Shown in pieces: positions 4,574 to 18,786 of a DNA stretch of 23,416 bases. A program made the translations under genes and the position numbers. Source of the DNA: a virus; IMG/VR virus record IMGVR_UViG_3300014932_000059, positions 1 through 23,416 of that record. One strand, written 5' to 3'. The notes under the pieces are model-generated. The model was not told the DNA's origin. It saw only the letters and a list, made by a program, of their open reading frames with translations, and did no database searches. Position 1 is the first letter of the stretch. Each line of letters opens with the position of its first letter.

Positions 4574-4931
4574 ATTTGATTTAGAAACAGACATCATGAA
4601 TGTCTGGGCTATTAAAGACCAAGTAGGCACGATGATGTGGAGATTTTATGACCATCCTGAGTTTTTATCACAAGATGAGCAAATGAATCATATTATGGCT
4701 GTTCAATATGCTATTGAACTAAATTGTGCTAAGTTAATGGATACATATTGTCAAGTATTTCAGCTTAATGAATATGCCACAGCAGAGATGAAACAGTTAC
4801 GTCAACAGATGCTCGATGGCTTAACTAAGAAAGCTGACAAAGAAGATGCCAAGAAGTTTTGGGAAGATAAAGGTTTACCTGAGTTTCCAATTAAAAAAGC
4901 AAAATCTAAAAAGACAGGGAAAACTGAATGA
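4560..4931 (+). CDS. Conserved phage hypothetical protein (123 aa)
   Basis: The product opens MSKNRFDLETDIMNVW and is mostly helical, with a Lys-rich end (KKAKSKKTGK). Short RFDLExxIM proteins of this type sit in the replication regions of many podoviruses, and I know of no established function. No membrane segment or catalytic motif is visible. The start overlaps the nuclease gene by 14 nt and the stop overlaps the next gene as ATGA, so it belongs to the same operon as the surrounding nucleases. Confidence 0.7.
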   Translation: MSKNRFDLETDIMNVWAIKDQVGTMMWRFYDHPEFLSQDEQMNHIMAVQYAIELNCAKLMDTYCQVFQLNEYATAEMKQLRQQMLDGLTKKADKEDAKKFWEDKGLPEFPIKKAKSKKTGKTE

Positions 4932-5665
4932 AAATTCTATTACTTGATATAGAGTCATCGCCTAATGTGGCACACGTTTGGGGCTTATGGCAACAGAATG
5001 TTGGAATCAATCAACTAATGGAATCTTCGTATGTACTTTGTTGGGCTGCTAAGTGGCTCGGTGAAGATGAAATCATATTTGATTCTGTACACCAATCTAA
5101 ACCTAAAAAGATGCTGAAAGGAATCTATGACCTCCTCAATGATGCAGACGCAGTCATTCATTATAATGGTACTAAGTTTGATATTCCTACTCTTAACAAG
5201 GAATTCTTACTACATAATTATGCTCCACCATCGCCTTATAAACAGATTGATCTTCTCCGTGTTGCTCGTAGCCAGTTCCGTTTTCCTAGCAATAAGTTGG
5301 ACTACGTAGCTCAGCGTTTAGGACTAGGTAAAAAGCAAGAACACGAAGGACATGATCTATGGGTCAAGTGTATGAATGGAGATAAAGATGCTTGGAAGCG
5401 TATGGAATCGTATAACATTCAAGATGTCGTTTTGCTTGAATCTCTTTATTGCCGTCTTCTTCCATGGATCAAATCTCATCCTAATCATAATCTTTATACC
5501 GATAATCGTGTGTGCCCCACCTGTTCTGGGAATAGATTACAAAAGCGTGGCACTGCTATCTCGGCTACTGGAAGGTATCAACGGTATCAGTGCAGCGATT
5601 GCGGAAGCTGGTCTCAGGGTACAAAAGCAGTCAAACCATCCGTTGAGGTAAAACATGCACTGTGA
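4928..5665 (+). CDS. DnaQ-like 3'-5' exonuclease with C-terminal zinc ribbon
   Basis: A 245-residue RNase H-fold exonuclease (DEDDy type): ExoI LDIES (D7, E9), ExoII HYNGTKFD (N80, D85) and ExoIII YNIQD (Y162, D166). A zinc ribbon follows, CPTC (C196, C199) and CSDC (C222, C225). It has no polymerase domain, so it is a second, stand-alone exonuclease beside the one built into the polymerase. The zinc ribbon probably adds nucleic-acid or partner binding. Candidate jobs are DNA end trimming, nucleotide salvage or RNA processing; none can be chosen from sequence. It overlaps the gene before by ATGA and the DUF3310 gene after by 11 nt. Confidence 0.88.
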   Translation: MKILLLDIESSPNVAHVWGLWQQNVGINQLMESSYVLCWAAKWLGEDEIIFDSVHQSKPKKMLKGIYDLLNDADAVIHYNGTKFDIPTLNKEFLLHNYAPPSPYKQIDLLRVARSQFRFPSNKLDYVAQRLGLGKKQEHEGHDLWVKCMNGDKDAWKRMESYNIQDVVLLESLYCRLLPWIKSHPNHNLYTDNRVCPTCSGNRLQKRGTAISATGRYQRYQCSDCGSWSQGTKAVKPSVEVKHAL

Positions 5666-10595: not shown

Positions 10596-10964
10596 TTAAG
10601 TTGCTTGTGTTGAGGCAGTTAAAATACCGTTAGTAAAAGTCATACTACCGTCAGTACCAGTAAGGGTTAATTTAGCAGTAGTAATTGTTCTAGTAATACC
10701 ACCAACAGGTACTATAGTTGCAGCTACGCTACCACCTGTAATAGATACGTTGTTACTATTTTCTGTAGCCATAGTACCAAGACCTAAATTAACTCTAGCA
10801 CCTGCAGCACTGTTAGCACCTGTACCGCCTTGTAGAATAGTAAGGACTACACCGCCTACTTGAGTCTGTTGAATGTAACTACCTAAGTTTAAGAACCAGT
10901 TTCTCCAACGAGCATTTTCCTCAATAGGGTCTTGTGGTATTGGAGGTAAATTATTAACACCCAT
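10596..10964 (-). CDS. Small structural protein, tail-fibre-like (122 aa)
   Basis: The N-terminus MGVNNLPPIPQDPIEENARWRNWF is followed by GGTGANSAAGARVNLGLGTMAT (47-68), a segment widespread in phage tail fibres and virion-surface proteins, and a Thr/Gly-rich beta part (GGITRTITTAKLTLTGTDGS). No enzymatic motif. It may be a minor virion or adhesin-like component. It is the gene after the ATP-grasp gene, overlapping it by one base, and separates that gene from the lysis group. Annotating it as structural rests on sequence style and the shared GGTGA segment, so confidence is moderate. Confidence 0.6.
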   Translation of the reverse strand: MGVNNLPPIPQDPIEENARWRNWFLNLGSYIQQTQVGGVVLTILQGGTGANSAAGARVNLGLGTMATENSNNVSITGGSVAATIVPVGGITRTITTAKLTLTGTDGSMTFTNGILTASTQAT

Positions 10965-12307
10965 TAATCATCTTCTCCTGATTCAACACCTGTAGCATAT
11001 CCATACTCTTGCAAAGCAGGTAAGTTCTTTTGAACCTTTTCACCAATGTCAGTACGATAAGCAATAGAGTTAGGGATCTCAATCTTCTTCTTAATCTTAC
11101 CGTATACAGACTCACGAGAAGCCTCAATAGAATCACCAAGTCCTACAACGGTGCATACATAGTCACCTGCTGTAACGAACATAGGGATATTCTCTTTAAG
11201 TTCTCCATCAATCATTGCAGGGCCTTTGCCCCACTGTACTTCACAAAGATGGACATCATTGACAGCATCTTCCATTGTCAAGCCCCAAATAGGATAACCA
11301 GAGTTTTCTTTCTTGGTCATACGGCTATATGGATAGTCAGGAATAGTAACCACTACACCACAAGCAATCTTGTCAGATACCTTTAAAGTGTCTTTACCAT
11401 CAATCATATCAAGCATCCACTGAGCAGGATCACCTTTATGTAAAGACATCTGAATGTTAAATAAAGGCCAACCTGGACGAGTAGTAAACTCCAAAGGCCA
11501 TGCTGTGCCTTTCTTATCAACAATACAGTTCACATCAATATAGCCTGTGTAGCCAATACCATGAAGCATACCTTCTAAAGGCTTTAACATTTGATCAGCA
11601 AGTTTAGAATCTTTTGTGTAGCGAACAATAGTACCTTGTTCACCTGTAGTAACACCTAGTTCACCATCCATAAGCTTTTTGTGTTCCCAAGACTCACAGA
11701 AGTACTTAGAGAAACCACCTGAACCAAACCAACCACCAACACCAAACTCAACACCTGGACGGAACTCTTGAAGAATGAACTTACCTTTAAAAGAGTTCTT
11801 TTTCTTCCAATAGCTTAGCATGTAAAGCATATCAGCAGCAGATTTAGCTACATAAGATAAAGTCTTGTCTCCATCACCAATAGGCTTAGAAACATATCTA
11901 TATGGGTTCTCTTTAACATAAGCAATAGCGTCATCATAGTTGTCAAAGGTTTGACTAGGGATGGTTTCTACACCTGCCTTGTTAAGGATAATCTCACCAT
12001 AGTCACGTTCTTGTTCCCAACTTGTGCCTTCTAAGTTAGCACCAAAGATGGGATAACCTTTATCACGGTAACGCTCTAGAGCATGAATGTAATAGATGTT
12101 ATCTGTAACAAAGATTAGGTCAGCCCAGTTCATATGGTCTTCCCAGTTGCTAACTCGTTTGATTAAACCACCATCACCGACTTCAGCACGAGAACCATCT
12201 TTATTATGACGCAGAAATAGTTTAACATCATGTCCTGCTGCTTCACTACGAAGACCAAAGGACAAAGCACAACCGCATCCTGATGGATCAATAATTAGTA
12301 TTTTCAT
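10964..12307 (-). CDS. PurD-like ATP-grasp ligase with altered signature motifs
   Basis: A 447-residue protein built like phosphoribosylamine-glycine ligase: N-terminal domain (1-100), ATP-grasp (about 100-290) and PurD-type C-terminal domain (315-430: ACGVVVTIPDYPYS, SGYPIWGL, YVCTVVGLGDSIEASRESVYGKI, YRTDIG). ATP-grasp features are the Lys in YVSKP (K141), the LQEF hinge (179-182), IDVN (257-260) and PLEFTTRPGWP (271-281). Two PurD hallmarks differ. The N-terminal GGREHAL-type loop is DPSGCGCALSFG, and the metal-binding ExN is E273-x-T275. So it may not make purines but ligate another carboxylate and amine. It sits between an ejection-protein gene (ATGA overlap) and a small structural gene, far from the nucleotide genes. 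The family is clear; the reaction is unknown. Confidence 0.82.
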   Translation of the reverse strand: MKILIIDPSGCGCALSFGLRSEAAGHDVKLFLRHNKDGSRAEVGDGGLIKRVSNWEDHMNWADLIFVTDNIYYIHALERYRDKGYPIFGANLEGTSWEQERDYGEIILNKAGVETIPSQTFDNYDDAIAYVKENPYRYVSKPIGDGDKTLSYVAKSAADMLYMLSYWKKKNSFKGKFILQEFRPGVEFGVGGWFGSGGFSKYFCESWEHKKLMDGELGVTTGEQGTIVRYTKDSKLADQMLKPLEGMLHGIGYTGYIDVNCIVDKKGTAWPLEFTTRPGWPLFNIQMSLHKGDPAQWMLDMIDGKDTLKVSDKIACGVVVTIPDYPYSRMTKKENSGYPIWGLTMEDAVNDVHLCEVQWGKGPAMIDGELKENIPMFVTAGDYVCTVVGLGDSIEASRESVYGKIKKKIEIPNSIAYRTDIGEKVQKNLPALQEYGYATGVESGEDD

Positions 12308-13923
12308 TTAATTTCATCACTAGGTGCTGCTACGACAGGAATGGAAGTTTTCATTAATAATCTACGGAAACGTGATATATCTTTAGCAGCTTCTGCAGTA
12401 TTCATTACACTTGTCATTGCATCATATTTTTCAGGAGATACACCAAACCGTTTTTGTACTTCAGGGCCTATTTCATGCCACATTGCTTTAGCATCTTTTA
12501 CTGTAGCATTATCTAAATATGATAACATTTCTTGATGAAATTGTTTCATTCCTTCAGGAACTTTACTTAAATTCCAAAGCTGTGATTTAATTTCTTTAGC
12601 ACCTCTAGAACCTTTTTCAAACAAACCAGGAAGTTCATCTTTAGCTATAGCAAGAGCTTCTTTAGAATAAGCTTCACGAGCTAGTTTTTCAGAAGCTTTA
12701 CCAGTAGTAGATGTTAAATATTCATTAAAAGCATTACGAACTTTTTCAGCATCTTGATAAGACATGTGTTCAGTAGCATTTTTTAAATTCTCTACTACAT
12801 CTTGACCAACTACAGCTTCATTTTTAGCATTTCTAAATAGGTCACCAAACTTTGTTTCTTGGGCAGGTATGCCTTTAGTCAATTTAGCAAACTCAGAAGA
12901 ATCTAAAAATGTTTGACCTTGTTTAGATATTGTATCATAAGATTGTTTAGCTTGTTCATACAAACCATGTGATATCGGTTTACCTGCAACAATAGCATCA
13001 GGATGAGCCGTAGCAAGTTCTTCACCTACAGCACGTTGGTTAATCATTTGACCAGATTGACCATGTTCAGCAACGGCAGATATTGGAGTAATTTCTCCTG
13101 TTTCAGGATTAATATGCTCAGCTTCACTAAATACTTTTTTAGCAGCTTCTTTATCTACTTTAGCACCACCAGTAATAAATTCTTTAGCTCTTCCTACCAT
13201 ACCCTGTGCAGCATAACCTGCTCCAGGTATTCCAGTAGTTTGTCCTACTTTATAAGCAAGTTTCTTAGCAATAAATGTTTCTACAGAACTTCCAAGCAAT
13301 GCTTTATATCCTGTAGATATAGCCTGTGTAGGTAATTTAGCACCAGCAGCAAGACCTGCTACTATTTGTGTTCCTGTACCAAATCCTAAATCTTTTGTTA
13401 TTTGTTCTGCTAAACCTGAAGCAGCACCTAGAACTAAACCTGCAGCAGCAGTTGGAATAGAAGCTACACCAAGACCAGCAACAGCACCAATACCTGCACC
13501 AATAGCAGCACTTGTTCCAATAGTTTTACCATATTCACCCATACTGCTAAGTTTAGCTTTAGATGGGTCTCTACCAAATGTTTCTGTAATGTCAGCACCT
13601 AATTTAGCACCTTCTTGTCTAGCTTGTTCTTTTTGTTGTTGTTGTGAATATTCAGGAACTAAAAGCTTAACAATATCTTCAGGACTATAACCAGCTTTTT
13701 CTGCTCCGTCTTTATCAAAACTTGCTTTTTCAGAAAGAGCAGAAGCAATTTCATCCAGTGAATAACCAGCGTCTTTAGCACCTATTACATCAAATTTAAT
13801 ACCTTTGCTTTCTTCAGCAGGTTTAGTTTTTTCTGCAGCAGGAGTAAACCCACTCTCACGAGGAACTACTTTAACAGGCATCTTTCCAGCAACAGCTTGT
13901 TCTTGTTCAAAGCTTAAAGGCAT
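12304..13923 (-). CDS. Probable DNA-ejection / internal virion protein (539 aa)
   Basis: The product carries two GYS-type repeats near the N-terminus (DAGYSLDEIASAL, 51-63, and KAGYSPEDIVKLL, 76-88). A long Gly/Ala-rich hydrophobic stretch follows (about 135-170, GAGIGAVAGLGVASI), then a helical, charged C-terminal two thirds. Amphipathic or membrane-active segments with long helices fit ejection proteins that leave the virion and help DNA cross the envelope. It is the third and last of three such genes after gp4- and gp10-like tail genes, the place of P22 gp16. No catalytic motif is visible. Its stop overlaps the ATP-grasp start (ATGA). Confidence 0.65.
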   Translation of the reverse strand: MPLSFEQEQAVAGKMPVKVVPRESGFTPAAEKTKPAEESKGIKFDVIGAKDAGYSLDEIASALSEKASFDKDGAEKAGYSPEDIVKLLVPEYSQQQQKEQARQEGAKLGADITETFGRDPSKAKLSSMGEYGKTIGTSAAIGAGIGAVAGLGVASIPTAAAGLVLGAASGLAEQITKDLGFGTGTQIVAGLAAGAKLPTQAISTGYKALLGSSVETFIAKKLAYKVGQTTGIPGAGYAAQGMVGRAKEFITGGAKVDKEAAKKVFSEAEHINPETGEITPISAVAEHGQSGQMINQRAVGEELATAHPDAIVAGKPISHGLYEQAKQSYDTISKQGQTFLDSSEFAKLTKGIPAQETKFGDLFRNAKNEAVVGQDVVENLKNATEHMSYQDAEKVRNAFNEYLTSTTGKASEKLAREAYSKEALAIAKDELPGLFEKGSRGAKEIKSQLWNLSKVPEGMKQFHQEMLSYLDNATVKDAKAMWHEIGPEVQKRFGVSPEKYDAMTSVMNTAEAAKDISRFRRLLMKTSIPVVAAPSDEIK

Positions 13924-13936
13924 AGTAACCCTGTAA

Positions 13937-15793
13937 TTATTTAAAGAAAGAATTTATAGGTTTAGTTGGTTTAGCACCTTCTGCACCCGCTTCTGTTTTA
14001 GAAGCACCCCCACCTACAGGATATTTTTCAGCTACATAATTACCAAAAGTTTGTTTACTTCCTTCTTTAACTTGATTCTGCCAAGTAAAGACATCTTCAG
14101 GAGTATATGGATATGCTTTATTAATTGCTTGATAAGATTTAACAAGAGACTCACGTTGAGATTTATTTAATGTAGGATTAGAAGCTTGTCCCTCAATACC
14201 TGCTCTAGCTGACTGAGCAAACTCAGCAAGCTTTTGATAAGCCAATACAGGACTCTGAGCAAATGCTTGTGTCATCAATGATTTTTCAAGGTTTCTTCTA
14301 TCAGTCTCAGAAGCACTTGTACCTAAAATAAGAGTAGCTTGTTGACGAATCAAAGGTAAAGCTAAAGCTTCAAACTGTTGTGTTGCTACATTAGACATAG
14401 GGCCTGTGGCAGCAGAAGCAGCAGCACCAAAGAATGTATCTGTTTTAAGATTACTAAATGCACCACGAGAAGGAACTTTTTCACCTTTATTAGTAAGAAT
14501 AGCCATATTGTCTAAACCAATTTTCATCTCATTGGCAGCAACAGTAACGTTAGTGTTTGTTTTAATATTATTAACACCAGGCTCTTTATAAGGCCCTGCT
14601 ACGTTAGCAAATAATTGTTTTTCTCTTTCATCTTTAGGTGTATAAGTATCACCTGTAGAACCTACAAAAGATGTTGGAGTATCTGTAGAAGGTTTAGAAA
14701 CACCTGCTTTACCAGGCTTATCTAAACTTAATCCTTCAGTAGGAGCAGTAGTAGTTTTTGGTGTATAAGCACCTGCTTCAAAGTTTGCCATTGCGTTAAA
14801 TACTTTATCACGAGTCTGTGTAGTATTCTCAATAGTTTCATTTACTTTGATACCTGCAGCATCTGCAATAGCTTTAGCATAATTAGCCGTAGATTCTTTA
14901 CTGTTACCTTTAGCACCTGCAGGAGACCATGTTTCAGCAAGACGTTCAGGAGTAACAGGTTGATTACCAAATTTATCTTTATAAGCTTGACTAGTACCTG
15001 CAATTTTACTTTGTAGGTCTCTTAATCCTGCTTCTCTTCCTTCTTCAGGAGTATCAAAAGAACGAATCTTTCCTGTTTTAGGATCTGTTACGTTTAAAGG
15101 ATTATTTTGACGAACACTTACAGGTGCTTCAGTAGCAGGCTCACCAGATGGTAATAAACCAGCACGTTTAGCTATTTCTAAAGGAATAGGTTTTTGTGCT
15201 GTGGTATATATTTCAGCTTGTTTTAAAGCAATATTTTGATCAGCACGAATGTTATCAGCTTTTTTATTATCAACTTCAGCAATAGCTTTCATGCCACTAA
15301 TAGTTAATTGTTGAGCTTTAATAGTCTCAGCTTCTGTCATTGCTGCTTCTTTTAACTTAGCTTTAATTTCAGGAATATGCTGATCAGCGTCAGGTGCTCT
15401 CAACATTCTTTCAATAAACATTTTAGTATTAGTATCTTTAACAGAAGAATTAACAATCGTTCTAATATCATCAATACTATTAGCTAAAGGAAGTTGCTGA
15501 GTAGCATACGACAGTTGAGCTTCAGATATTTTTAGTTTATCTAGTTCTACTTGTGTATTAGCTTTACCAAGTTCATTAGCTTGTTTAGAAAAAGAATAGC
15601 CTAAAGAATCTAGTCCTTTAGATTTAGCTAATACGGCTGCTTTGTTAAGTGCTCCTTGTTGCATTTCAGGAGACATAGTCTCTGGTGTTTGTCCTGCGTA
15701 TACATCACGTAGAATGTTACCTGAAGCAATGTCAGTACCAATTTCACTACCTAATGTGTAACCAGCTACTGCTGATTCTGCGAAGCTTGCCAT
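13937..15793 (-). CDS. Virion protein with lysozyme/transglycosylase-like domain (618 aa)
   Basis: Residues 1-200 are helical. Residues 227-315 carry a domain opening VRQNNPLNVTDPKTGKIRSF with DTPEEGREAGLRDL, RLAETWSPAG and STANYAKAIADAAGI. This is the NNPxNI...FdtxexGxxAl...W.P..EN..Y pattern found in phage virion-associated peptidoglycan hydrolases. It probably loosens the cell wall during DNA entry. The remainder (about 330-600) is low-complexity then helical and ends in a Lys/Pro-rich tail. It lies between a small Gly-rich gene and the third ejection gene, the place of P22 gp20. The domain call is good, but the catalytic residue is not fixed from sequence. Confidence 0.75.
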   Translation of the reverse strand: MASFAESAVAGYTLGSEIGTDIASGNILRDVYAGQTPETMSPEMQQGALNKAAVLAKSKGLDSLGYSFSKQANELGKANTQVELDKLKISEAQLSYATQQLPLANSIDDIRTIVNSSVKDTNTKMFIERMLRAPDADQHIPEIKAKLKEAAMTEAETIKAQQLTISGMKAIAEVDNKKADNIRADQNIALKQAEIYTTAQKPIPLEIAKRAGLLPSGEPATEAPVSVRQNNPLNVTDPKTGKIRSFDTPEEGREAGLRDLQSKIAGTSQAYKDKFGNQPVTPERLAETWSPAGAKGNSKESTANYAKAIADAAGIKVNETIENTTQTRDKVFNAMANFEAGAYTPKTTTAPTEGLSLDKPGKAGVSKPSTDTPTSFVGSTGDTYTPKDEREKQLFANVAGPYKEPGVNNIKTNTNVTVAANEMKIGLDNMAILTNKGEKVPSRGAFSNLKTDTFFGAAASAATGPMSNVATQQFEALALPLIRQQATLILGTSASETDRRNLEKSLMTQAFAQSPVLAYQKLAEFAQSARAGIEGQASNPTLNKSQRESLVKSYQAINKAYPYTPEDVFTWQNQVKEGSKQTFGNYVAEKYPVGGGASKTEAGAEGAKPTKPINSFFK

Positions 15794-15802
15794 ATTTTAT
15801 CC

Positions 15803-16435
15803 TTATGCTAATGCAGCAGCGTAATCAATCCAAGCCATACTGTCTGCAGCACCTGCCCCACTTAAGGAAGTAGACAAGTCACCACCACTCATAAGAGGGT
15901 CTGACATGAAACCAAAAGGCCCACCACTGCCACCACCAAAGATACCAGACTTAGATAAAGCACTACCTGCTAAGAGAGTACTAAAGATACCTGTTTGAGC
16001 ATTCTGTTGATTAATTTGATTTTGTAAAGCAGCAGATTGTTGTTGACTATTATATTGTACTTGTCCAGCCTGAGCAGGAGTCTGAGAAGTAGCTCCTGAT
16101 AATGTACCTAGTTGATTGTACATTTTATCATAGAAGGAACCAAATACATTTTGTCCATAACCTTGCAAAGCAGCGTTTTGGCTACCTGATTGTAAAAGCC
16201 CTTTAGAGGCTCCTGCAGCATCAGTAGCTCGCATGCCTTGACTAAGTGTTTGCTGATAACCAGGCATAGACAAAGCTATAGAAGGGTCATTCATTAAACT
16301 TTGTAATTGAGAAGCCGCACTAGTACGACCCCCTATAGAACCGTATGGGTCTGTTTGAGATTGGGAAAGAGGAGTAGGGGCTGATGCTCCACCGCCACCA
16401 CCACCGCCAAAGATTGAACTTACTATTGAACCCAT
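15803..16435 (-). CDS. Small Gly/Gln-rich virion protein, ejection-protein candidate (210 aa)
   Basis: The N-terminus is MGSIVSSIFGGGGGGG, followed by Ser/Ala/Gln-rich helical sequence (a QNQINQQNAQ segment around 137-146) and a Gly/Ser-rich, Ala-rich end. The composition and a small size close to P22 gp7 (229 aa) or T7 gp14 (196 aa) suggest the smallest of the DNA-ejection proteins. Its placement first in a run of small, larger and large virion genes supports this. No domain is recognised directly. AAGGAG precedes the ATG (read on the - strand). It follows the acetyltransferase gene by 9 nt. Confidence 0.6.
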   Translation of the reverse strand: MGSIVSSIFGGGGGGGASAPTPLSQSQTDPYGSIGGRTSAASQLQSLMNDPSIALSMPGYQQTLSQGMRATDAAGASKGLLQSGSQNAALQGYGQNVFGSFYDKMYNQLGTLSGATSQTPAQAGQVQYNSQQQSAALQNQINQQNAQTGIFSTLLAGSALSKSGIFGGGSGGPFGFMSDPLMSGGDLSTSLSGAGAADSMAWIDYAAALA

Positions 16436-16444
16436 GATAACTCC

Positions 16445-16897
16445 TTAAATATATTTGCTAAATAGCTTTTCGATAAACGTGTATCCTAAATACTCAAATA
16501 ACTTGCTATTATCTTGATGTACTTTAGTTGAACACAATATTTTATTAACACACAGACTTTTAAGATGCTGTTCAGCGTACTGAAACAGTTTAATGCCTGT
16601 CCTACCTTTTCTATGCTGTTTACGTAAGAAGTAAATATCTTCGTAAGCAGTTAAACAAGATTTCACATGCAGATGTCTAGATATAATATAGAGAATGTAA
16701 CCAATCAACTCTCCGTCACTTCTACATGTAACAAGCTGAATCATTCTAGCATTGTCTAAATTCTTATATTGATCCCAATCTAGATCAAGATCATAACCAC
16801 CACTTGTTGCACCTTCTAGTTCTTCATAATGCTCAGGATAGAGAGTGGCTAATTCAGGAACTACATCTGAATATCTCTCTATCTGGTAAGTAATCAT
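16445..16897 (-). CDS. GNAT-family N-acetyltransferase
   Basis: The 150-residue product has the GNAT core: a beta segment LIGYILYIISRHLH (64-77), then the acetyl-CoA loop in FLRKQHRKGRTGIKLFQYAEQ (90-110; R96, G98 and G101 form the R/QxxGxG/A motif) and a closing NSKLFEYLGYTFIEKLFSK (130-148). It would move an acetyl group from acetyl-CoA to an amine of a protein or small molecule. It lies between the gp10-like gene, whose stop overlaps its start by one base, and the first ejection gene, so it is expressed with late virion genes. Similar GNAT genes occur in other phage late operons. The substrate is unknown. Confidence 0.82.
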   Translation of the reverse strand: MITYQIERYSDVVPELATLYPEHYEELEGATSGGYDLDLDWDQYKNLDNARMIQLVTCRSDGELIGYILYIISRHLHVKSCLTAYEDIYFLRKQHRKGRTGIKLFQYAEQHLKSLCVNKILCSTKVHQDNSKLFEYLGYTFIEKLFSKYI

Positions 16898-18786
16898 TAT
16901 GTCCTATATTGTAACTGTGTGGGTTCTGAAGCTTCTAATTCACCAATATCAAAGTCAACCTCGGCTGCTAACAGTCTTAAAGGTTGATTGTCTGTGCACA
17001 AAAACTCCCATGCTCTACGACGTGCTGCACCACTTTGATACACTTGTGGTCGTTGTTTATCTAGGTTTACTGAACGGTAAGGAGACCAGTTTTTATAGTC
17101 ATCATTACTGTGTCTGATGTTCATAACTGCAGGGACTTTATCTCCTACAATCTCTAAACGATTAAAGAACTTACGCTTAGTAGTACCACCATCAATAATA
17201 TCTGTTACAGTACGATAATAAATAGGAGCACCAGAATCATTGTAAACATGATCTGACATCGTATATAGTGTGCCGTTATCATCATCTAATAAATAGTAAG
17301 TATCGCTAATCTGAGTAAAAAAACTAGGACGGAAGTACTGCTCAGCATAAATACCTGGCACTCCTGAGCCTGTATCACCAATAGCCCACATAGTCCATTG
17401 AGTCCAAACCTTTTCATTTACATCGTATACTATTGTAACATTTAAATCAGCTAATGTCAAGACATAAAAAGTATGTCCATTGATTCTTAAAGCATAAGCT
17501 CTAATATCAGCTAAAGTACTATTCTGTAAAATACGGTCAATAAAGGGTGTAGAAAGCTTTGTAGGGGCTGTACCTGAGATAGCATAGACCGATGGGCCTG
17601 CATCTCTAGAAGTACCTACCCAGACTATAATGTTCTCAAAACTAACGATAGAATCTCCGTTAGCACAGCCAAGCTCAATATGGTAAGGAGCAGCAACTGC
17701 CAAAGGGGAACCTGGATACGTACCAGCATCATAGAACCAATCAATAGACCACTGACCAAAAGTAACAATATAGTTTAAATGCTTACCTATACCTACTAAC
17801 TGGTCAGGTTCAGCCTCAGCAGTAATATAGTTTAAAGCATTCCAAGTAGTAGGGTCATTAGCATTAGATGTAAAAAGCTCACCATTAGGACTAGCAATAA
17901 CTGTGTAAGTATCTAAGTAACAAGCACCAGGAACAATAGTGCCTGAAGGAAAGCCATTTAACAAAGCAGTAGCAGCAGCACCTGTACCGCCTGCATCAGT
18001 GTTGTTTAAATACTGTAAAGTAGCTGTACCATCAACTTGAGTACCACTAGTAAAGGTAGGAGCACTAGTCCCTGTAGTTCCTGCAATAGTTACTGAATAT
18101 ACATTACCTGAACTAACAAGTACTGTACCTGCTGCATAAGCTGTACTGGCTGCCCAAGAAGTACCAGCAGTATCTGTAATAGTAACTACTAATGTGTCTG
18201 AGCTTGTATAGCCTGAGCCACCATCAGTAATAGTAATACCTGTAACAATACCACCATAGCTTTGAACAGTACCTGTAGCAGTAGTACCGCCACCTGAAGG
18301 GGCTGAAAAGGTTACAATAGGGTTAGTATAGTTTTTACCACCAGTAAGAATAGTTACTGTAGAAATGTTGTCATCTTTGACTTGAACAAAAGCTCCTGTA
18401 CTACCATTAATAGTATAACCATGTACTTGGTTATGTACAAATAAATAAGTATCGTTTAGAGTCTGTTCAAAGTAACAAGTAGCATAACCACCGTTAACAA
18501 GACCTGTCATTGTACCTACAATAGTTCTTGCACCAGTGCTAGGAACAACCTTATAAATTACGTTATCAACTACTGCGTATAGATTACCGTTAAAGTAAGT
18601 TAATCCTTGTCCTTGCCCTGTAGGCATAGTAGGAGAAGTAACAAATGTAGATGTACCAGGACGCTTAACAAACTCTCGCTTGCCGTTAGTCGCTTCAAAA
18701 TAACCATTAACACACTTAGAGTCAGTGTTTAAATAGCCGTTACGAGTCTCAATAGGTTGAGACAATGGTATTCTAACAATAGGCAT
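16897..18786 (-). CDS. P22 gp10-like tail hub / DNA stabilization protein with inserted beta module
   Basis: A 629-residue late protein of the P22 gp10 type (packaged-DNA stabilization, tail hub). Supporting segments are the N-terminus (MPIVRIPLSQPIETRNGYLN), a beta-propeller-like middle (YFNGNLYAVVDN; TFGQWSIDWFYDAG; ENIIVWVGTSRD) and a C-terminus with YYRTVTDIIDGG, KFFNRLEIVGD and a SGAARRRAWEF segment. Residues about 141-276 interrupt the core with a Gly/Thr-rich beta module: two GG-x-Y/GYT-type repeats flanking a WAASTAYAAGTVLVSSGNVYS segment that resembles small carbohydrate-binding modules. The gene follows the gp4-like gene by a one-base overlap. Assignment of the core is good; binding by the insert is inference. 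Confidence 0.8.
   Translation of the reverse strand: MPIVRIPLSQPIETRNGYLNTDSKCVNGYFEATNGKREFVKRPGTSTFVTSPTMPTGQGQGLTYFNGNLYAVVDNVIYKVVPSTGARTIVGTMTGLVNGGYATCYFEQTLNDTYLFVHNQVHGYTINGSTGAFVQVKDDNISTVTILTGGKNYTNPIVTFSAPSGGGTTATGTVQSYGGIVTGITITDGGSGYTSSDTLVVTITDTAGTSWAASTAYAAGTVLVSSGNVYSVTIAGTTGTSAPTFTSGTQVDGTATLQYLNNTDAGGTGAAATALLNGFPSGTIVPGACYLDTYTVIASPNGELFTSNANDPTTWNALNYITAEAEPDQLVGIGKHLNYIVTFGQWSIDWFYDAGTYPGSPLAVAAPYHIELGCANGDSIVSFENIIVWVGTSRDAGPSVYAISGTAPTKLSTPFIDRILQNSTLADIRAYALRINGHTFYVLTLADLNVTIVYDVNEKVWTQWTMWAIGDTGSGVPGIYAEQYFRPSFFTQISDTYYLLDDDNGTLYTMSDHVYNDSGAPIYYRTVTDIIDGGTTKRKFFNRLEIVGDKVPAVMNIRHSNDDYKNWSPYRSVNLDKQRPQVYQSGAARRRAWEFLCTDNQPLRLLAAEVDFDIGELEASEPTQLQYRT

Follow-up and report, generated by a model that had tools for sequence, protein, structure and literature searches.

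A PurD-fold ATP-grasp ligase family, separate from PurD, in the late module of mostly freshwater podovirus-type phages

The late module and the ligase gene

The window, by which we mean the whole stretch of DNA that was analysed, is a virus record of 23.4 kb. Its plus strand carries replication genes encoding a DNA polymerase (911-2560), a Gp2.5-like SSB, exonucleases and an RNR; a separate exonuclease-type ORF (4928-5665) matches a DNA polymerase exonuclease-subunit family. The minus strand holds the late module, in which tail-fibre-like and head-closure (Hc3) proteins, a GNAT-like ORF and three ejection-type genes are followed by a PurD-like ATP-grasp ligase gene, a tail-fibre-like ORF, a spanin and a GH19 endolysin. 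The ligase gene encodes 447 aa and runs on the minus strand from its ATG at 12307 down to its TAA at 10964, exactly where the initial annotation had drawn it. The setting described there, among late and lysis genes and apart from the nucleotide genes, is also correct; the genes for DNA polymerase and RNR are on the plus strand.

Directly upstream of the ligase, and overlapping it by 4 bases (ATGA), is an ejection-type late gene for a 539-aa protein (12304-13923, minus strand), identified by its position and by relatives at other loci. It is preceded by a second ejection-type gene, for 618 aa (13937-15793, minus strand), identified by position, and by a DNA-ejection-like protein (15803-16435, minus strand) matching PHROG 598 with an E value of 1.3e-6. 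Neither of the two large proteins has a Pfam domain and the 539-aa protein has no domain match at all; their "ejection-type" label stands for position together with weak matches of relatives. Downstream, a small tail-fibre-like ORF (10596-10964, minus strand) overlaps the ligase gene by 1 base.

Several features of the module deserve mention in their own right. The head-closure/stabilisation protein (16897-18786) is enlarged (629 aa) and has a central insertion with weak matches to CBM_5_12, a carbohydrate-binding module, and to tail-fibre families; the matching region of the phage genome MW202796 is annotated as two ORFs. The GNAT-like acetyltransferase ORF (16445-16897) separates the head-closure gene from those of the ejection-type proteins, and both MW202796 and Alcaligenes phage QDWS535 have a GNAT at this place. 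Upstream of the ligase, the large ejection-type proteins start with short peptide repeats that differ from phage to phage and are present in two or three copies each: NPFDRFD, SFSFEEAS, NAFADLPP, VSYDPFA and MSPEEW (loci L128 6921, L114 5496, L117 4068, L131 6748 and L080 5725).

Fold, family and active site

The AlphaFold2 (AF2) model of the ligase (pLDDT 90.9, pTM 0.90, with loop 215-220 predicted poorly) has the whole PurD fold, comprising the N, A, B and C domains with a PurD-type C domain. The 15 best PDB matches to it are all PurD, led by 2YW2 (E 4.7e-28, TM 0.73). PurK, which like PurT shares the superfamily and the overall architecture, is the next match by fold, but a much weaker one (TM 0.56), and the C domain of the ligase is of the PurD type. 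Against a viral structure library the model reached a TM of at most 0.45 on the query, and no match there belongs to the ligase family. At the level of profiles, Pfam GARS_A (PF01071) and GARS_C (PF02843) match slightly under their cut-offs, and the purD model TIGR00877 covers residues 1-425 with 81 bits, against a curated cut-off of 288 and scores of 458-628 for full-length true PurDs from two sampled phyla. The protein thus has the three-domain PurD layout that had been read from its sequence, C domain included, while it has no PHROG match and lies below the curated thresholds of Pfam and NCBIfam. It is PurD by fold and not by membership.

The same separation is seen in phylogeny. A tree built from 37 family members and 24 PurDs splits the two groups by a branch 2.9 changes per site long (support 100/100). 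The split persists after the addition of eight cellular members, with the viral members all in a single clade (98/100); the long branches of L119, L120 and L180 leave the branching order of the cellular lineages unsure. Where PurD has RFGDPE and TGGMG, the ligase reads RPGWPL and TGEQGT, and both PurD signatures are absent from all 37 family members. Instead, TGE[QM]GT (for TGGMG) and PLExTxRxGxP (for ExNxRFGDPE) are invariant in 35 viral and 10 cellular members. As a control, 18 viral contigs were found to encode a PurD bearing both TGGMG and GDPE; these score 266-636 bits on a PurD profile and 36-90 on the family profile, whereas the ligase family scores 57-94 and 199-774, respectively. Since viral true PurDs retain the signatures, the changed motifs are no by-product of being viral.

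In Aquifex PurD, ATP is bound by K103, K143, E185, E192 and K214, glycine by D212, R287 and E292, and Mg by E100 (PMC8880213); these ligands were transferred to the ligase through a profile alignment to 2YW2. Four ATP and Mg ligands are identical (Aquifex E100, K143, E192 and K214 correspond to E98, K141, E187 and K210), and two other ATP ligands are conservatively exchanged (K103 for R101 and E185 for Q180). The ATP-binding segment, residues 141-148, from the ATP lysine K141 to K148, is encoded at 11864-11887 (minus strand). At the glycine ligands D212, R287 and E292 the ligase has E208, R277 and L282, so that two of the three are replaced and the Arg alone is kept; across the family the Asp and Glu of PurD give way to Glu and Leu or Thr. 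By this mapping the glycine pocket, to which the initial annotation had pointed as diagnostic, would not be intact.

Counted column by column over 45 family members (35 viral and 10 cellular) and 24 PurDs, the catalytic positions are the most conserved of the protein, and E208, E223, T226, P271, E273, T275 and R277 are invariant in the family. Residues 221-226 (11630-11647, minus strand) form TGEQGT in place of PurD TGGMGA. Residues 271-282 (11462-11497, minus strand), PLEFTTRPGWPL, replace PurD xxEFNxRFGDPE and include the metal Glu273, Thr275, the carboxylate Arg277 and Leu282 in place of the glycine-binding Glu. In the C domain, GDY at residues 381-383 (11159-11167, minus strand) stands for PurD GGR. 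The PurD-only motifs GGREHA, GPEAPL, TGGMG, GDPE and GGR are all absent from the family, and YRxDIG near the C-terminus is common to both groups. The loop that replaces GGREHA, residues 7-17 (12257-12289, minus strand), has an Asp7 that is invariant among viruses and is otherwise variable. Its reading as DPSGCGCALSFG in the initial annotation is real, but it belongs to one sub-clade, the loop being variable within the family as a whole, and what is constant is the absence of GGREH (37/37). The other change reported there, E-x-T for ExN, occurs in 45/45 family members and 0/24 PurDs; the larger changes, from TGGMG to TGE[QM]GT and the loss of GDPE, had been missed.

Although invariant, the exchange of ExN for ExT is mild and does not by itself imply that the metal site has been lost. 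The family retains Glu273, and Asp258, present in 43/45 members where PurD has Tyr, lies at the position of the usual first metal ligand of ATP-grasp enzymes. PurT and PurK, both active enzymes, likewise have no Asn at the corresponding place. Because the ATP and Mg ligands and the Arg are kept and the PurD motifs are lost, the ATP engine is kept, with recognition of the glycine amino group and the PurD-specific acceptor elements rebuilt. The structure of PurD with phosphoribosylamine (PRA) bound has never been solved (PMC8880213), and for this reason loss of the PRA site is something we infer from the lost PurD-only conservation.

Viral and cellular distribution

A scan of IMG/VR with the family alignment gave 227 confirmed stretches, and divergent queries added more; the ratio of these 227 non-PurD stretches to the 18 with a motif-true PurD is limited by the search patterns and is not a census, and many contigs derive from similar waters that were sampled repeatedly. 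Scanning viruses with the Halarchaeum protein and its own patterns gave no match. The carriers are a family of mostly freshwater podovirus-type viruses, among them MW202796 (Manatee Spring), a complete GenBank genome. In that genome (MW202796.1, locus L081), the 1.3 kb ligase gene at 42140-43462 is intact and stands without any annotation.

With the head-closure protein as an independent anchor, the ligase gene was found 4.5-6.8 kb downstream in 30 of 30 decidable contigs; none of the contigs with at least 9 kb downstream of the anchor was without it, and 45 others were too short to decide. The ligase is therefore a core gene of its phage lineage. Against relatives, its dN/dS is 0.05-0.13, which means purifying selection. 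Alcaligenes phage QDWS535 and EBPR podovirus 1, which are more distant but share the module, have no ligase in their annotation or among tblastn matches.

Rare cellular relatives occur in Elusimicrobiota, Armatimonadota, one haloarchaeon and Alphaproteobacteria. Of the 295 genomes sampled from the phylum of the Elusimicrobia MAG, 8 have a chromosomal member, a count obtained from ten matches by removing a binned viral contig (G002) and a true PurD (G891). The phylum of the Armatimonadetes MAG has one further chromosomal member, and the other 397 genomes in the phylum of the Methylococcaceae MAG have none at E <1e-45. The MAG matches L116-L118 were rejected as cellular and taken as binned viral contigs because their place in the tree is within the viral clade. 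A true PurD match is also present in each of the nine chromosomal carriers (eight over the cut-off, one as a fragment). Plasmid-borne members were found in Halarchaeum, Roseomonas and Sphingomonas; the copy on the Sphingomonas daechungensis plasmid (L121, NZ_CP060781.1, 9408-10708) is broken into two ORFs and may be in decay. The cellular members stand alone among housekeeping genes with no virion genes near them. Their neighbours were considered as a guide to function and rejected, given that the Halarchaeum, Roseomonas, split Sphingomonas and seven Elusimicrobiota loci share no partner. A type III PKS cluster lies close to the Roseomonas copy, on the opposite strand.

The family has a precedent in haloarchaeal "extra" PurD-like proteins set aside in 2011. 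Brown et al. (PMC3261824) judged rrnAC0307 and Hlac_1553 not to be GAR synthetases because they are without the Asp of R[LF]GDPE and have a divergent N-terminal P-loop; that paper describes neither a function nor viral members. The Halarchaeum member has the same defects, and rrnAC0307 and Hlac_1553, compared by their printed description, likely belong to the ligase family. Our literature search found neither a function nor viral members described for the family. Other phage ATP-grasp proteins, namely R2K/CDC123-like peptide ligases and amidoligases, for which an amide-forming role has been proposed (PMC7824862, PMC4431377), share the ATP-grasp fold with the ligase of the window but belong to different families. 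A search for phage ATP-grasp proteins associated with ejection proteins found no paper; PMC10580990, on OM43 phages, was rejected as a source for ATP-grasp proteins, as the term occurs there in a reference only.

Probable activity and its meaning

The reading that we prefer, with a probability of roughly 0.6, is that the protein is an active ATP-grasp carboxylate-amine ligase that has the fold and chemistry of PurD but changed substrates, and no longer makes glycinamide ribonucleotide. With the substrate-recognition parts of PurD replaced around an intact ATP engine, it would very probably be a different, uncharacterised bond-forming enzyme. If it is catalytically active, as the residues suggest, ATP would phosphorylate a carboxylate to an acyl phosphate, which an amine would then attack to give an amide. 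The donor may be a carboxylic acid different from glycine, or else glycine bound in a new way by Glu208, Glu223 and Trp280; the acceptor would not be phosphoribosylamine. Both are probably small molecules, and the product may be of importance at the late stage of infection, in the host envelope or the nucleotide pool for instance. Substrates may differ between the deep cellular and viral branches.

That the protein is a highly diverged but ordinary GAR synthetase, boosting purine synthesis during infection as an auxiliary metabolic gene, is suggested by PurD being its nearest known fold and family, by the presence of nucleotide genes such as RNR in the phage, and by viral GAR synthetase genes in the literature (PMC11360552). 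We consider this quite improbable: the score on the purD model is far from the cut-off and from true PurDs, the loss of GGREHA, GPEAPL, GDPE and GGR and the replacement of two glycine ligands extend to all members, the 18 viral true PurDs retain their motifs, and the cellular carriers hold a separate PurD. It is less credible still, to the point of being very hard to accept, that the gene encodes a catalytically dead or structural relic, as E-x-T at the metal site could suggest; the catalytic columns are the most conserved, Glu273 and Asp258 offer a classical metal pair, PurT and PurK are active without the Asn, and the dN/dS values speak against it.

If the enzyme were instead a peptide or protein ligase acting on an ejection or tail protein in the late phase, this would explain why its gene immediately follows the last of the large ejection-type genes in phages that are divergent, with the 4-base overlap in 50 of 67 loci (deduplicated by local identity only). 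We nevertheless regard this as unlikely. The protein encoded next to the ligase varies far more than the ligase itself: where phages have ligases of 66-68% identity, these neighbours show no recognisable relationship. The C-terminus of the ejection protein was rejected as a conserved modification site, as no conserved C-terminus exists. The overlap, too, was rejected as proof of functional coupling, because the ligase-free Alcaligenes phage has a lysozyme at this place with the same 4-base overlap. Cellular members have no ejection-type partner. The N-A-B-C architecture of PurD is that of small-molecule enzymes, which also counts against a protein substrate. The variable upstream protein, the lysozyme in the ligase-free relative and the lone cellular members together favour a small-molecule substrate over a virion protein. 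Of the new ATP-dependent ligation suggested in the initial annotation, a non-PurD enzyme with a probably different substrate thus stands, the change of substrate being well supported by the separate clade, the altered glycine ligands and loops, the kept ATP site, the true PurD beside it in cells and the unchanged viral PurDs; its virion-protein target is not supported, given the adjacent proteins that are not recognisably related and the cellular members without virion genes near them.

The ligase of changed substrate proposed here belongs to the core genes of a freshwater phage lineage that is common, and selection on it is strong; since its active-site residues divide cleanly into kept and replaced ones, its biochemistry can be tested directly. 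Loose annotation would mislabel it as PurD; viral "phosphoribosylamine-glycine ligase" genes have been counted as purine auxiliary metabolic genes in marine samples (PMC11360552). At about even odds, the family would be an undescribed amide-forming one, fixed in entire podovirus-type lineages with a rare cellular counterpart, that makes a phage-specific metabolite or an envelope or nucleotide modification late in infection, and many freshwater viral "PurD" calls would be this enzyme.
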